A stretch of DNA of 64,000 nucleotides, taken from the NCBI GenBank assembly GCA_015061885.1, contig SUVS01000002.1:62001-126000 (forward strand), given 5' to 3'. The position numbers were made by a program, and so were the translations under genes. The notes under the pieces were generated by a model that saw nothing but the letters and a program-made list of their open reading frames with translations, was not told the DNA's origin and made no database searches. The first letter of the stretch is position 1; every line of letters starts with the position of its first letter. Below, in pieces: positions 31,903 to 51,891 of this stretch. The DNA is from Lentisphaerota bacterium (GTDB taxonomy: Bacteria; Verrucomicrobiota; Lentisphaeria; Victivallales; Victivallaceae).

Positions 31903-33486
31903 ATGTTGTCTGATAAATCAGTTAAAAAATTATTTTCAGAATATCTTAAAACTCCGGAAGCGGAACTTTTGCGGGGCGATTTTCAGCTTGGTCAGGCTCC
32001 GGAACTTCTGTATATTATGGAAAATTCCGCCGATCCGGGGCATTTTCTGGAACTGGTGATGGATCACTGCAATAAACTCCAACGCAAAGATGAAGGTACA
32101 TTTTACACACCATCTTCAGTTGCCGGAAAGATGTTCCGCCGTTCACTGGAAATATTCCGGAAAAATAATCCGTCGCCGGAGAGTTTGCTCAATATCAAAG
32201 TGCTTGATCCGGCTTGCGGGAGCGGCGAATTTATTCTGGAAGCACTGAAAGTGTTGTTTGAAGAATTCCGTTTGCTGAAACCCGATGTACCGGCAAATAT
32301 ATTGCTTGAGCAGATAATCAGCAGCAACCTTTACGGTATTGACTGCAACTGCAATGCCGTGCAATTACTCTGGTGCCGGTTGAAAATTGCCGGCGGCAAT
32401 GCGGTCTCTCTGGAGAATTTTATTGTAAAAGATGTGCTGGAGTATTCTGACGCGGCGGCGTGTTTCAATAAAAATATCAAATTTGATATTGTAATCGGTA
32501 ATCCGCCGTATGTAAGCTACGGCTTGCGTAATGCCGGCAAAATTGATAAAAACCGTGCGGCGGAATTAAGAAAAAGATTTCCTTTTTCCGCTGAATACAA
32601 GATAACGCTTTACGCAGTTTTTATTGAGTTTGCCTTGAATTCAACTGCCCCAAACGGGGTTCAGAGTTTTATTGTGCCGGATAGTTTTCTTTGCGGGCAA
32701 TATTTTACCAAACTGCGTAATTTTATGCTCAAAACCACCTCATTTGACTATTTTTATTTAATCAAACAAAAACTTTTTGATGCAGTTCCCGGTACTCTTG
32801 TCATCTATATTGCAAGCAAAAATATTCCCTCTGAAAATCATGAGTTCAAAACTGTATTGCTGAACGGAAAAACCCCGTTTGAGTTGCCGGAAAACGGCTA
32901 CACGATGCGGCAAGGTTCTCTGGAAAAAAATCCACGGCAGAAATTCCGGCTCTTTTTCAATGAAGATATTCACAAACGCATTATGGATATTGAAAGTAAA
33001 AGCGTTTGCAAATTAGGCGATCTGCTCGAACTTGCCAGCGGTCTGATCGCTAAAAAAGGCAAATCTTCGATCGTTGCCGATAAACCGCAGCAGGACGGCA
33101 TCTATCAACGCGGCCTGGTCAGCGGCAGAGAGATAACCGCGTCGGGCACAGTAAATTATCAGGGATATTTCATCAATTCCGACCCGGCAAAAATCAAAAG
33201 CGGTCTGAAAAATATTGATTATTCGCAACCGAAAATATTGATCCGTCAAACCGGTGACAGAATAATTTCCGCCGTAGATCGCAATGGTTTGCTGGTTTTG
33301 AACAATATCCATGTGGGAACAGCCAAACGCTCCAATCTTGATCTCGAACGCCTGTCAAAGTATCTGAACAGCAGTGAAATGTGCTTTTACTATCAGGCGA
33401 TAACCCTCGAAGCAAACCGCCCGATGGCACAAATAGACTTGGAAACTCTGCGGGAATTGCCAATGAAAGAAACTTTTACGCTGTAA
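31903..33486 (+). CDS. N6-adenine DNA methyltransferase (Eco57I/TaqI-like), no nuclease partner seen
   Basis: LDPACGSGEFILEAL, LYGIDCNCNAVQL, FDIVIGNPPYVSY motifs; C-terminal target-recognition-like region. Confidence 0.85.
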   Translation: MLSDKSVKKLFSEYLKTPEAELLRGDFQLGQAPELLYIMENSADPGHFLELVMDHCNKLQRKDEGTFYTPSSVAGKMFRRSLEIFRKNNPSPESLLNIKVLDPACGSGEFILEALKVLFEEFRLLKPDVPANILLEQIISSNLYGIDCNCNAVQLLWCRLKIAGGNAVSLENFIVKDVLEYSDAAACFNKNIKFDIVIGNPPYVSYGLRNAGKIDKNRAAELRKRFPFSAEYKITLYAVFIEFALNSTAPNGVQSFIVPDSFLCGQYFTKLRNFMLKTTSFDYFYLIKQKLFDAVPGTLVIYIASKNIPSENHEFKTVLLNGKTPFELPENGYTMRQGSLEKNPRQKFRLFFNEDIHKRIMDIESKSVCKLGDLLELASGLIAKKGKSSIVADKPQQDGIYQRGLVSGREITASGTVNYQGYFINSDPAKIKSGLKNIDYSQPKILIRQTGDRIISAVDRNGLLVLNNIHVGTAKRSNLDLERLSKYLNSSEMCFYYQAITLEANRPMAQIDLETLRELPMKETFTL

Positions 33487-33492
33487 ATAGGT

Positions 33493-34027
33493 ATGGTGTT
33501 GTATGGCGAACACCTGTGTGCCGCCGCGATAAATTGAGAAGATTTGAGAGGCTTTGGGAAGGTTTGGGAAGGTTTGGGAGGGCGGGCTTTGCCCGCCGAC
33601 GGCCGGTTGACGCTCTGCCCATGCAAGCAATACTCAGCGTGTAGCCAGCCAACAGCATTTGGCGGCATCAGCCGCCCACGCACTATATTGCCCGCTCGCA
33701 CGGCGTAGCCGGGCGTATGCGGCGAATACAGGCGGCAAGGACTCCCATACTCTCTCATATTTTCCCATATTCTCCCATACTCTTCCATAAAAAAGCCGCC
33801 ACGCACCATATTGCCCGCTCGCACGGCGTAGCCGGGCGTATGCGGCGTACATGGCATACGGTATGGGGTTGTATGGCGAACACCTGTCTGCCGCCCGATG
33901 GATTGAGAGGCTTTGGGAAGGTTTGGGAGGGCGGGCTTTGCCCGCCGACAGCCGGTTGACGCTCTTACCCGGCAAGCATTATATAGTGTAAAACCTATTG
34001 CCCGCGTATGCGGCGAAACCGGCATAG
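33493..34027. repeat. Modular intergenic repeat, copy A (inverted relative to copy B at 46199-46755)
   Basis: Shares blocks with copy B in opposite orientation: GGCGGGCTTTGCCCGCC hairpins (33581-33597, 33930-33946), GAACACCTGT(G/C)TGCCGCC, 10-bp periodic CCCATA tracts, GCCGCC-ACGCACCATATTGCCCGC. Confidence 0.88.
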
Positions 34028-34028
34028 G

Positions 34029-34298
34029 GTGAGCGACGCAGCAATTAATTTCGAAAAATGTTGCGGTAATTATTCCTGGGTGGAAATGTCGAGTTTTGCA
34101 AGGAACGATCCGAGGGAGCATACCTTTGTATGTGACCGAGGTGAGCGACGCAGCAATTAATTTCGAAAAATGTTGCAGTAATTATTCCTGGGTGGAAATG
34201 TCGAGTTTTGCAAGGAACGATCCGAGGGAGCATACCTTTGTATGTGACCGAGGTGAGCGACGCAGCAAGGCTCGAGATTTCCCGCAGGAATAATTACT
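34029..34298. repeat. 112-bp tandem repeat (two full units plus partial third) with foldback end
   Basis: GTGAGCGACGCAGCA starts at 34029, 34141 and 34253 (112-bp spacing); units 1 and 2 differ by one base seen; GTAATTATTCCTG at 34066 and 34178, inverted CAGGAATAATTAC at 34285-34297. Confidence 0.93.
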
Positions 34299-36805: not shown

Positions 36806-39043
36806 ATGTCTGCAAAAAAATCTGTTTCCCGCGGAGCGATCGCCATCATGACCAGCGGCGGTGATGCTCCGGGTATGAATGCCTGTATCCGCGGCTGTGT
36901 GCGTACAGCTCTGGAAGCCAACTTCAAGGTCTATGCCATTTACGAAGGCTATCAGGGATTGATAGCCGGGAATATCGGCGAATTGAAGTGGGACGATGTA
37001 TCCAATATCATCCAGCTCGGCGGCACAGTTATCGGCACTGCCCGCAGCAAGGAGTTCCGCGAACGCTCCGGCTTGCTCAAAGCGGCACACAATCTGATAA
37101 AAAACAGGATCGACAAACTCATGGTCATAGGCGGCGACGGTTCGCTTTCAGGTGCGGAAGACTTGCGTGAGCAATTCCCCGGTTTGACTGATGAACTGTT
37201 GAAAAAAGGTCTTATTACCGCCGAAGAAGCCGCCGGATACCGCAATCTGACCGTTACCGGTGCCATCGGCAGTATCGACAATGATATGGCTGAAAGCGAA
37301 ATAACCATCGGGGCGGATTCCGCACTGCACCGCATTGTTGAAGCATTGGATGCCATCACCAGCACCGCTTACAGCCATCAACGCACATTTATCATCGAAG
37401 TCATGGGCAGAAACTGCGGCCATCTGGCATTGATGGCGGCACTGGCATCGGGGGCATCGGGCTGTTTTATACCGGAAATGCCGCCGGAAGATGATTGGCC
37501 GGATCAGCTGGAAAAAAATATCCTTGAAGGGGCAAAAGCCGGACGCCGCGTAAACCTTATTGTCGTGGCCGAAGGTGCCAGAGATAACAAAAACCGCAAA
37601 CTTGATGCCCGGATAATCCAGGAAGAACTCACCAAACGTTCGCTGGATTCACGCATTACTATTCTGGGGCATGTTCAGCGCGGCGGCGTACCCAGTGCAT
37701 ACGACCGCTGCATGAGTACACTTTTCGGGGTGGAAACGGTCAATATTCTTTTGCGTAACAGCGAGGAGTCACACATAGCCTGTCTGCAGAAAAACCGCAT
37801 CAGCAGTACGCCGCTGACCGCCGCTGTTGCCAAGACCCGTGCCGCCGGAAAAGCTCTTGCCGCCGGTGATTTTGCCGCCGCCGGAAAAGCCCGGGGCGAT
37901 GAGTGGCTGCGGATGGCGTATATTCAGAAGACCCTTATGCGGCTTGCTCCGCCGGAAGAAAACTCCAAACGCAAAAAGGTACGGATCGGCGTGGTGACTG
38001 CCGGGCGTGCCGCCGCCGGGGTGAACAGTGCAGTACGCACCATAATCCGCATGGGCATGGCAAGCGGAGCAGAAGTTGTCTGCTTTGAGGAAGGGCCCAA
38101 CGGTCTGATAAACAATAAATCGCACATTGCCAGCTGGATGGAGCCGGAATTGTGGAACGCCTTCGGCGGTTCACGGCTTGGTGCGGGCAGATATGTCGAA
38201 AGCCACGGCGACATTGGTGCTATTGCAGAAAGTTTCCGGAAAAATCAGCTTGACGGCTTTATTCTGATCGGCGACTGGGGCGGCTACCGGCTTTTGAACA
38301 AACTCTGCAACGCCCGCAAGCGGTACAAAGAGTTCGATATACCCATGATCGCCATCCCCGCATCCATCAACAACGATCTGCCGGGCAGTGAGTACAGTAT
38401 CGGTTGCGATACAGCTTTGAACAACATCGTTGATGCCGTAGATAAGATCCGCAACTCCACAGATACTGCCAAACGCACCTACATTGTGGAAGTAATGGGG
38501 CGTTATTCGGGGTATCTGGCGTGCTGTGCGGCACTTGCCTCCGGAGCGGAATACTGTTATACGCCCGAAAAAGTTCTGTCGCTGGACGACCTCCGGCATG
38601 ATGTGCGGGAACTTGCCGAAGCCTTCAAGCACGGCAACCGCCACACCGGTTTGATAATCCGCAACGAAAATGCCCACGACGACTACACCACCGACTTTAT
38701 TTCCACTTTATTTGAAGCCGACGGCGGCATTGAGTTTGATGTCCGCAAAGCAGTACTCGGCCCTTTGCAGCAGGGCGGAATACCCTCGCCGCTCGACCGT
38801 ATCCAGTCGGTGCGGATGGCGTATTTTGCCGTCCGCAATCTGCTGGAATCAGTGGTGATGAATGTTTCCGGCGGCTACTTTATCGGCTGTGAAAACGGCG
38901 AAGTAGTTATGCACAACTGGAAAAAACTGCGTTCTTACCCCGATCCGTGGCAGCGGACAAAGTGCCGCCGCTGGTGGCAGGAGTACGAAAAAGCCATCCA
39001 CCGGCTTTCCATTGATCCGGAGGTGCGGAAAAAGATCAAGTGA
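36806..39043 (+). CDS. Tandem (double-domain) 6-phosphofructokinase
   Basis: N-half MTSGGDAPGMNACIRG, VIGGDGSLSGA, GSIDNDM, IEVMGRNCGHLAL; C-half VVTAGRAAAGVNSAVR, PASINNDLPGSEYSIG, VEVMGRYSGYLAC. Confidence 0.9.
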   Translation: MSAKKSVSRGAIAIMTSGGDAPGMNACIRGCVRTALEANFKVYAIYEGYQGLIAGNIGELKWDDVSNIIQLGGTVIGTARSKEFRERSGLLKAAHNLIKNRIDKLMVIGGDGSLSGAEDLREQFPGLTDELLKKGLITAEEAAGYRNLTVTGAIGSIDNDMAESEITIGADSALHRIVEALDAITSTAYSHQRTFIIEVMGRNCGHLALMAALASGASGCFIPEMPPEDDWPDQLEKNILEGAKAGRRVNLIVVAEGARDNKNRKLDARIIQEELTKRSLDSRITILGHVQRGGVPSAYDRCMSTLFGVETVNILLRNSEESHIACLQKNRISSTPLTAAVAKTRAAGKALAAGDFAAAGKARGDEWLRMAYIQKTLMRLAPPEENSKRKKVRIGVVTAGRAAAGVNSAVRTIIRMGMASGAEVVCFEEGPNGLINNKSHIASWMEPELWNAFGGSRLGAGRYVESHGDIGAIAESFRKNQLDGFILIGDWGGYRLLNKLCNARKRYKEFDIPMIAIPASINNDLPGSEYSIGCDTALNNIVDAVDKIRNSTDTAKRTYIVEVMGRYSGYLACCAALASGAEYCYTPEKVLSLDDLRHDVRELAEAFKHGNRHTGLIIRNENAHDDYTTDFISTLFEADGGIEFDVRKAVLGPLQQGGIPSPLDRIQSVRMAYFAVRNLLESVVMNVSGGYFIGCENGEVVMHNWKKLRSYPDPWQRTKCRRWWQEYEKAIHRLSIDPEVRKKIK

Positions 39044-39086
39044 CGGAAAACTGACGGAAATATGACGGTTTATTCCGTCAGTTTTT
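39041..39086 (+). terminator. Probable terminator with TGACGGA iterons after the phosphofructokinase gene
   Basis: TGACGGA/TGACGGA/TGACGGT/TCCGTCA at 39041, 39052, 39063, 39074, followed by GTTTTT. Confidence 0.65.
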
Positions 39087-39146
39087 CAATTATTTGATAA
39101 TAAGTGTGTTACAAACCGTCATTTGAAATTTTGGAGTTATAGTTTT

Positions 39147-46198: not shown

Positions 46199-46755
46199 GT
46201 GCAGAATGTACCGGTTTTTTTATGCCCCGCCGGATGGGAGCGTCAACCGGCTGTGGCGGGCAAAGCCCGCCTCCCAAACCCTCCCAAACCCTCCCATACC
46301 TTCCCATACTTTCCCATATCCATCGCGGCGGCACACAGGTGTTCGCCCTACAACACCATACCGTATGCCATATACACCGCCTACGCCCGCCTACGCAAAT
46401 GCTCCGGCGTGGCGAGCGGGCAATACGGTGTGTGGCGGCTTTTTTATGGGAGAGTATGGGAGAATATGGGAAAATATGAGAGAGTATGGGAGTCCTTGCC
46501 GCCTATGTTCGCCGCATAAGCCCGCCTCCGTTGCACTGCGGCGTGGCAAGCGGGCAGTATGGTGCGTGGGCGGCTGATGCCGCCAAATGCTGTTGGCTGG
46601 CTGCACGCCGGGTACTGCTTGCCGGGTAAGAGCGTCAACCGGCCGTCGGCGGGCAAAGCCCGCCTCCCAAACCTTCCCATACCCTCTCATACTTTCCCAT
46701 ATCTATCGCGGCGGCAGACAGGTGTCCGCCCTGCAACACCATACCGTATGCTTTA
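46199..46755. repeat. Modular intergenic repeat, copy B
   Basis: GGCGGGCAAAGCCCGCC hairpins at 46255-46271 and 46648-46664; 10-bp period tracts TCCCAAACCC/TCCCATACTT and ATGGGAGAGT/ATGGGAGAAT; reverse complement of copy A blocks. Confidence 0.88.
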
Positions 46756-51094: not shown

Positions 51095-51126
51095 AAAAAA
51101 AATGACGGATCACTCCGTCATTTTTT
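51095..51126. terminator. Bidirectional terminator between GH28 and thyX
   Basis: AAAAAATGACGGA-TCAC-TCCGTCATTTTTT. Confidence 0.85.
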
Positions 51127-51165
51127 CGTCATTTATCCGTCACTTGAGCTTTTTACGCTCAAAAA

Positions 51166-51891
51166 TCACCAGGTCTGCCCCTGTTTTTCGTAATAAGCAG
51201 CCACATGCGGCACGATCGGTTTGATGAGCTTTTTGATGGCTTGGGCGTATTCGCGGATCTCCACCTGTGCGTGGTCGCTGTCGCGCAATTCCAGGAAGTG
51301 CAGCAGATTGGAAAGATCCACCGTTCCCCAGAAAGTTACCATCATGTTCTGCGGCAGGACCCCGCGGGCCTGTTCGCGGCAGACACCGCCCTCGAGCAGC
51401 TGATTGTAAAGAGCAAGGCTTGCTTCGTTATGTTTGCGGATGGCTTCCACCAGTTCGGGAGCTTTGAAATTTTCATCCACATAAGAAGCCTGCCGGTTGT
51501 TGGTGCTCTGCTTACGCAACTCTGTGGGGTTGAAACACTCCAGGTCGATTTCCGTATAACGCCGGGAGATCTCGTTGTAACTCCAGGTGCGGTGGCGGTG
51601 CCACTGGCCGCGGACAAAAAGCGGGCAATGGATGCTGAAGGTAAAGACCAGGTGTTCCAGCGGACTGGTGTGGCGGTTGGCGATCAGATACTCTAAAAGA
51701 GCTTCGTCGCGGGCGTCGATTTCGGTTTTGATCTTGCCGAAACTTACGCGGGCGGCGTTGACGATGGTAGCTTCGCTGCCGAGATGGTCGATCAGACCCA
51801 CCCAGCCCTGGCCGTCAAGAACTTTAACATGGTTTGCCGGCGGAACATTGAGATGCTGCTGCATGGTGTAAAACCCTTTCCTTGTATTCAT
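51166..51891 (-). CDS. thyX: FAD-dependent thymidylate synthase
   Basis: RHTSPLEHLVFTFSIHCPLFVRGQWHRHRTWSYNEISRRYTEI (ThyX motif RGQWHRHR). Confidence 0.95.
   Translation of the reverse strand: MNTRKGFYTMQQHLNVPPANHVKVLDGQGWVGLIDHLGSEATIVNAARVSFGKIKTEIDARDEALLEYLIANRHTSPLEHLVFTFSIHCPLFVRGQWHRHRTWSYNEISRRYTEIDLECFNPTELRKQSTNNRQASYVDENFKAPELVEAIRKHNEASLALYNQLLEGGVCREQARGVLPQNMMVTFWGTVDLSNLLHFLELRDSDHAQVEIREYAQAIKKLIKPIVPHVAAYYEKQGQTW

Follow-up and report, generated by a model that had tools for sequence, protein, structure and literature searches.

In Neisseria and Haemophilus, uptake sequences form intrinsic terminators as inverted pairs, and the STRR sequences of cyanobacteria are tandem short units in intergenic DNA. 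The pho box has a core of 6–7 bp that is repeated directly with an 11-bp period and an AT-rich spacer. PhoB binds direct repeats in tandem (PMC3348028). The TAACTGA direct repeats of Beggiatoaceae, Cyanobacteria, and Bacteroidetes occur in intergenic regions as sets of 2–6 units, mostly in one orientation, which place stop codons in three frames and in some cases overlap the end of the upstream ORF (MacGregor, 2015, PMC4679880). The genes that flank these sets have no common function, and the function of the repeats is unproven (PMC4679880).

Here, we describe arrays of the word TGACGG in the window, i.e., the whole 64-kb stretch of DNA that was analysed (G000:C81:62001–126000), and in related genomes. 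Each copy consists of a conserved hexamer, (R)TGACGG, and a 5-bp linker rich in A, and 2–4 copies are spaced at exactly 11 bp. The nearest described kind is the TAACTGA repeat (MacGregor, 2015, PMC4679880), which shares with the TGACGG arrays an orientation bias, three-frame stops, and functionally unrelated flanking genes. However, TAACTGA is a heptamer, whereas the TGACGG array combines a hexamer core with a variable 5-bp linker; TAACTGA sets mostly stand immediately ahead of the following start codon, whereas TGACGG arrays hug the preceding stop; and 169 TAACTGA sets are present in that genome, as against approximately 7 array loci in G000. Like minisatellites and STRR sequences, the arrays are tandem short intergenic units, but outside the family, TGACGG arrays with 11-bp spacing are more often repeats of the entire unit (identity between linkers in a cross-set comparison: 0.59 in the family of G000, 0.76 in unrelated genomes, and 0.74 in viral contigs).

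The geometry is that of OmpR/PhoB operators, with head-to-tail sites, an 11-bp period, and an AT-rich spacer: same-strand spacings in noncoding DNA are almost exclusively 11, 22, and 33, and the linkers are 61% A and 17% T in the family, whereas those in unrelated genomes (17% A) and in viral contigs are not A-rich. The reverse strand of the array, CCGTCA-N5-CCGTCA, also resembles the CTGTCA-N5-CTGTCA of the pho box. On the other hand, the core differs from CTGTCA, and OmpR/PhoB operators are found at promoters while the TGACGG arrays are found at gene 3′ ends. No 11-bp pair of TGACGG or CTGTCA (≤1 mismatch) was found in 11 PstS-like loci, searched for approximately 1.5 kb on each side, which leaves a pho box of this clade unsupported. 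The literature searched, mostly without subscription papers, held no description of TGACGG arrays, in agreement with the preliminary description, which had known of no element of this form; nothing relevant was found on repeats in Lentisphaerae or on the intergenic repeats of Victivallis, and no paper on uptake sequences in terminators was returned.

The phosphofructokinase, thyX, and uppS arrays

One array begins on the stop codon of a phosphofructokinase (PFK) gene, identified by a match to Pfam PF00365, that ends at 39043. Its units are TGACGGA (39041–39047, + strand), the TGA of which (39041–39043) is the PFK stop codon, a second TGACGGA (39052–39058, + strand), and TGACGGT (39063–39069, + strand), followed by an inverted TCCGTCA (39074–39080, − strand) and then GTTTTTC. 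The preliminary description had reported the three units, their exact 11-bp steps, the inverted copy, the T-run, and the use of the first TGA as the stop codon, and all of its coordinates are right. The RNA is predicted to fold into an intrinsic-terminator hairpin (AAAACTGACGGAA/TTCCGTCAGTTTT with the T-run; 39047–39085, + strand), in which unit 2 forms the 5′ arm and pairs with the inverted copy in a 13-bp stem followed by T5, while unit 3 is an alternative pairing partner. The minimum free energy of 39035–39095 is −21.8 kcal/mol (z = −5.4). A sigma-70-like promoter was sought beside the array and none was found. Across relatives, the PFK locus carries the array only in G000; in G001, CCGTCA pairs are present in the opposite orientation.

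The same arrangement had been claimed to follow uppS and thyX, which is only partly correct. A three-unit array (TGACGG, TGACGA, TGACGG; 51114–51142, − strand) lies 23 nt past the thyX stop, between convergent genes, and its last unit and an inverted copy (51103–51109) form a predicted terminator hairpin with T8 (51097–51126, − strand); the fold (z = −4.97 for 51095–51175) is comparable to that at PFK. Clusters of TGACGG and CCGTCA are found at thyX in four of the five species of genus g1, in differing arrangements, and hairpins with TGACGG/CCGTCA stems and T-runs occur there in G000, G001, G002, and G004. At uppS, the stop codon (1261–1263) is the TGA of an isolated TGACGGA (1257–1263, − strand), and three direct units (1200–1228, − strand) begin 35 bp beyond it, in the intergenic region before a Na+/dicarboxylate symporter gene. 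This array has neither an inverted copy nor a long T-run, and its fold is no better than that of shuffles (z = −0.18). In genus g1 (L283, L284, L285, L078, and L254), a composite module of approximately 60 bp recurs, in which TTGAGCTT/AAGCTCAA often separates the array from an isolated TGACGGAT.

In the family, cdsA usually follows uppS. The gap between the two genes is short and array-free in several genera, holds a single TGACGG in G020 and G022, and is filled by an array in g1, g8, and g9; the array is additional DNA within this junction. The two genes are still adjacent in G001, G002, and G003. In G000 and G004 they are separated and each has its own array, downstream of uppS in one case and upstream of cdsA in the other, a layout that fits a rearrangement at the arrays.

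The preliminary description had offered, as one reading, a family of terminators assembled from phased iterons. This reading applies to PFK, thyX, and a few other loci, where a G+C-containing hairpin is followed at once by a T-run; it does not describe the family of arrays as a whole. An inverted copy within 45 nt is missing in 24 of 33 arrays, so that the word forms one arm of a terminator at some loci, but the majority of arrays cannot work in this way, and a purely terminator-type element is rejected for them. Only 4 of the 38 terminator-like hairpins in the G000 sample have a TGACGG stem. The PFK and thyX cases resemble uptake-sequence terminators in that one word forms inverted pairs before T-runs after genes. 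Unlike uptake sequences, the TGACGG hexamer is only mildly over-represented genome-wide (320 copies in 413 kb on both strands, approximately 0.8 per kb) and mostly occurs in direct rather than inverted arrays; it is too rare to be a DNA uptake sequence.

Abundance and constraint

TGACGGA is present 16 times in the window (shuffle mean 6.46), and two units at 11 bp (TGACGNA-N4-TGACGNA) are present 5 times, against a shuffle mean of 0.01 and with none of 100 shuffles reaching 5. The 2.96-Mb, 98-contig genome (G000) contains 13 exact TGACGG-N5-TGACGG pairs, compared with 2 for the reversed-pattern control. Three-unit arrays with one mismatch permitted were found in 15 of 41 relatives, where the control had zero matches; at zero mismatches, 10 of the 289 genomes of a phylum sample carry them, i.e., 8 of 48 in this family and 2 of 241 others. 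Counts at 11-bp spacing that were no higher than in shuffled sequence had been named beforehand as grounds for giving up the element; the observed counts exceed both the shuffle and the reversed-pattern controls, which rules out a chance origin.

Some pairs in G000 are coding coincidences, namely the 12-bp-spaced pairs and several 11-bp pairs (gyrA tail; contig C91). With the gyrA tail and C91 excluded and near-exact arrays included, approximately 7 noncoding loci are left, among them PFK, uppS, thyX, the region from aroE to an ATP-binding-protein-like gene (C52), an amidohydrolase-like gene (C73), and the region upstream of cdsA (C88). The window holds three of these and is therefore unusually array-rich. 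At the 3′ end of gyrA on the same contig (L044 12240–12310, G000:C81), TGACGG units, with 11-bp pairs and an inverted pair, lie within the coding sequence of what is apparently the acidic C-terminal tail of GyrA.

In samples from G000, G004, G011, and G012, which include contigs chosen for their arrays and yield counts rather than densities, TGACGG at 11 bp ranked first or close to first among words by autocorrelation. A scan of noncoding DNA found it in 5 (G000), 5 (G011), and 3 (G012) separate intergenic regions, and G014 and G025, which have few or no arrays, gave no phased word whatever. Among the matches listed in a scan of named genomes, most were chance or minisatellite, and Lentisphaerae bacterium SIG94 has an array of the family type that follows the end of an ORF. 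In a genome of another family of the same class (L260, G243:C138:5800–9900), 11 TGACGG units are spaced at 10/11 bp with linkers of the GGGGTC type, and this array looks like an ordinary minisatellite.

Constraint on the unit was measured from TGACGG pairs 22 bp apart in 60 genomes of the family, collected blind to the intervening sequence. The middle hexamer was bimodal (n = 108), with 33 exact copies, 9 with one mismatch, and the rest mostly with 3–6 mismatches. Core identity was 0.93 among the 48 middle units with ≤2 mismatches, a cut that raises this value somewhat and on which the bimodality does not depend; linker-linker identity in the same 48 arrays was 0.55, compared with 0.47 expected from column composition. 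With 93% of the core kept and the linkers near their composition expectation, both the core and the spacing look constrained, and duplication of whole units alone is disfavoured, since the core would then drift as fast as the linkers. The C and the first G of CGG are among the least variable positions of the unit. Identical linkers are found in 10 of the 48 arrays (about a fifth), probably through recent 11-bp duplication; most arrays are not simple copies of one 11-mer. A tandem minisatellite, in which core and linker would be equally alike, thus does not fit the arrays beyond this minority.

Position at gene ends

By a single ORF-based rule applied to all three sets of arrays, 17 of 24 family arrays (71%) lie in the sense orientation at or just past the end of an ORF, as against 20 of 80 (25%) in unrelated bacteria and 11 of 57 in viral contigs. 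Arrays within an antisense ORF number 3 of 24 in the family, 35 of 80 in unrelated genomes, and 29 of 57 in viral contigs. Part of the association with stop codons follows from the repeat itself, as three units that contain TGA at 11-bp steps stop all three frames; the outside sets measure that share, and the family exceeds it. The association with gene 3′ ends, whose absence the preliminary description had likewise held to be decisive, is therefore borne out. A viral origin was also considered and rejected, as the 64 viral-contig matches behave like the unrelated-genome controls and unlike the family. Random 28-mers fall in a comparable zone in 2–2.5% of cases, or in 9–15% if placed outside genes.

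Approximately 22 of 33 arrays, placed by reading and by gene calls from a simple codon-based script on incomplete assemblies, have their first base at −25 to +36 relative to a stop codon; in approximately 14 of the 33 the stop codon is unit 1, 2, or 3 (both hand counts). The next start codon is usually some 20–150 nt from the array. In the 60 nt after stops in the G004 sample, TGACGG occurs 18 times in sense and 0 times in antisense. Some C-termini have been rewritten by array sequence (SDGKVTVK*, SNDGNLTEK*, and SDGNMTAK*). The arrays upstream of cdsA have no preceding sense gene, and no common function is shared among the genes adjacent to arrays.

Candidate explanations and other phased elements

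A conserved core, free linkers, and rigid spacing suggest that something reads the word. The best explanation, to which we assign a probability of roughly 0.4, is that each array is a lineage-specific row of sites recognised by a putative tandem-binding factor. Such a sequence-specific factor would pack head-to-tail, one protomer per 11 bp, in the style of the OmpR/PhoB winged-helix proteins, and once bound might influence how the junction between the genes is transcribed. At PFK and thyX, where the array adjoins an inverted copy and a T-run, the same arms could also fold as an intrinsic terminator. We infer the binding by a protein, its action on DNA rather than RNA, and its effect. The phased protein binding proposed in the preliminary description gains indirect support from the exact 11-bp steps, the conserved core with free linkers, and the noncoding spacings; the binder itself is only putative, and helical phasing with variable turns (10, 21, 32) does not match a noncoding spacing held rigidly at 11, so that phasing alone is not demonstrated. 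Counting against a tandem-binding factor, the arrays are few (approximately 7 noncoding loci), and their loci are unconserved except for uppS–cdsA and, in part, thyX.

The main rival, nearly as likely as a tandem-binding factor, is a dispersed short repeat, functionless or self-propagating, that expands through slippage in 11-bp steps and through recombination. Only gene ends would tolerate it, as its TGA in all frames truncates genes that it enters in sense. This would account for the extra DNA in an uppS–cdsA junction that is tight in relatives, the separation of these genes, each flanked by an array, in G000 and G004, the rewritten C-termini, the arrays with identical linkers, and the TGACGG array at the left end of three composite repeat copies of approximately 600 bp in G004, as well as for further phased words in the same genus (ATGGGA and ACGGAC, each at 10 bp). 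It does not readily explain why the core is conserved and the linkers are not, why antisense arrays inside genes are so few compared with unrelated genomes, or why the uppS–cdsA position is kept in three genera. If the arrays spread as a repeat, they illustrate the way in which DNA bearing stop codons can enter operon junctions and rewrite C-termini. Because relatives with an array, with a single unit, and with no array are all available at the uppS–cdsA junction, the question can be tested there directly.

A less likely proposal is that UGACGGA acts in the RNA as a 3′-UTR or operon-junction element, recognised by a protein that binds RNA or by a small RNA of complementary sequence, and affecting processing, stability, or termination, with the terminator hairpins as one form. 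Binding to single-stranded RNA would not be expected to require a spacing of exactly 11 nt. The strong sense-strand bias at stops and the hairpins with T-runs at PFK and thyX point toward such an element, while the 24 arrays without an inverted copy, the few TGACGG stems among terminator-like hairpins, and the unremarkable fold of the uppS array point away from it. No Rfam model matched the 64-kb window at the gathering threshold. A G, C, or T after the unit breaks the CsrA-type GGA motif, and CsrA was rejected as the reader since GGA is missing from many units. It is quite improbable that the arrays are translational cassettes whose overlapping stop and start codons and three-frame stops could hand ribosomes on. 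As 11 bp is four codons minus one base, an NTG-ACG start is in frame with the TGA of the next unit; stop codons do fall in unit 1, 2, or 3, the ATGACGG of the last unit opens the next ORF in G006 and at one G011 junction, and three-frame stops were noted for the TAACTGA repeats (MacGregor, 2015, PMC4679880). Nevertheless, single-base variants in which the stop is lost (CGA, GGA, TGG, TGC) are no less frequent than those that retain one (TAA), so that a stop-codon cassette was discarded as the main reason for the arrays; some arrays lie between convergent genes (thyX) or upstream of cdsA without a preceding sense gene, and the CGG, whose C and first G vary among the least, would be left unexplained.

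If the arrays are bound, they would represent sites of control at transcript ends that share the geometry of bacterial operators. The family of largely uncultured bacteria in which they are found probably belongs to Lentisphaeria, as suggested by prepilin-type proteins typical of that group. A broader version, in which a putative dedicated factor reads phased 3′-end arrays as a clade-specific regulatory or insulating system, with a tandem-operator layout at transcript ends and not at promoters, is doubtful. The words ATGGGA and ACGGAC could be read by sister factors.

The three composite noncoding repeats of G004 lie on one contig (G004:C23; L083 4130–4721, 9060–9656, and 19281–19850), and the genes preceding them differ (an FtsX-like permease, an Eco57I-type methylase, and a BlaR1-type M56 peptidase). 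Two dispersed noncoding mosaic elements in the window (33480–34030 and 46200–46750) carry TATGGGAG/TTTGGGAAGG arrays at exactly 10 bp, which adjoin a GGCGGGC-TTT-GCCCGCC hairpin. Matches to these elements number 37 in G000 and 23 in G001, with none in G002–G004; in G002 and G004 a similarly built element takes their place, in which the word repeated at 10 bp is ACGGAC. Across species the layout stays the same and the array word changes, and these elements are possibly more interesting than the TGACGG arrays. The intergenic region of one mosaic element also contains 2.2 copies of a 112-bp tandem repeat (34028–34268) that are 99% alike.
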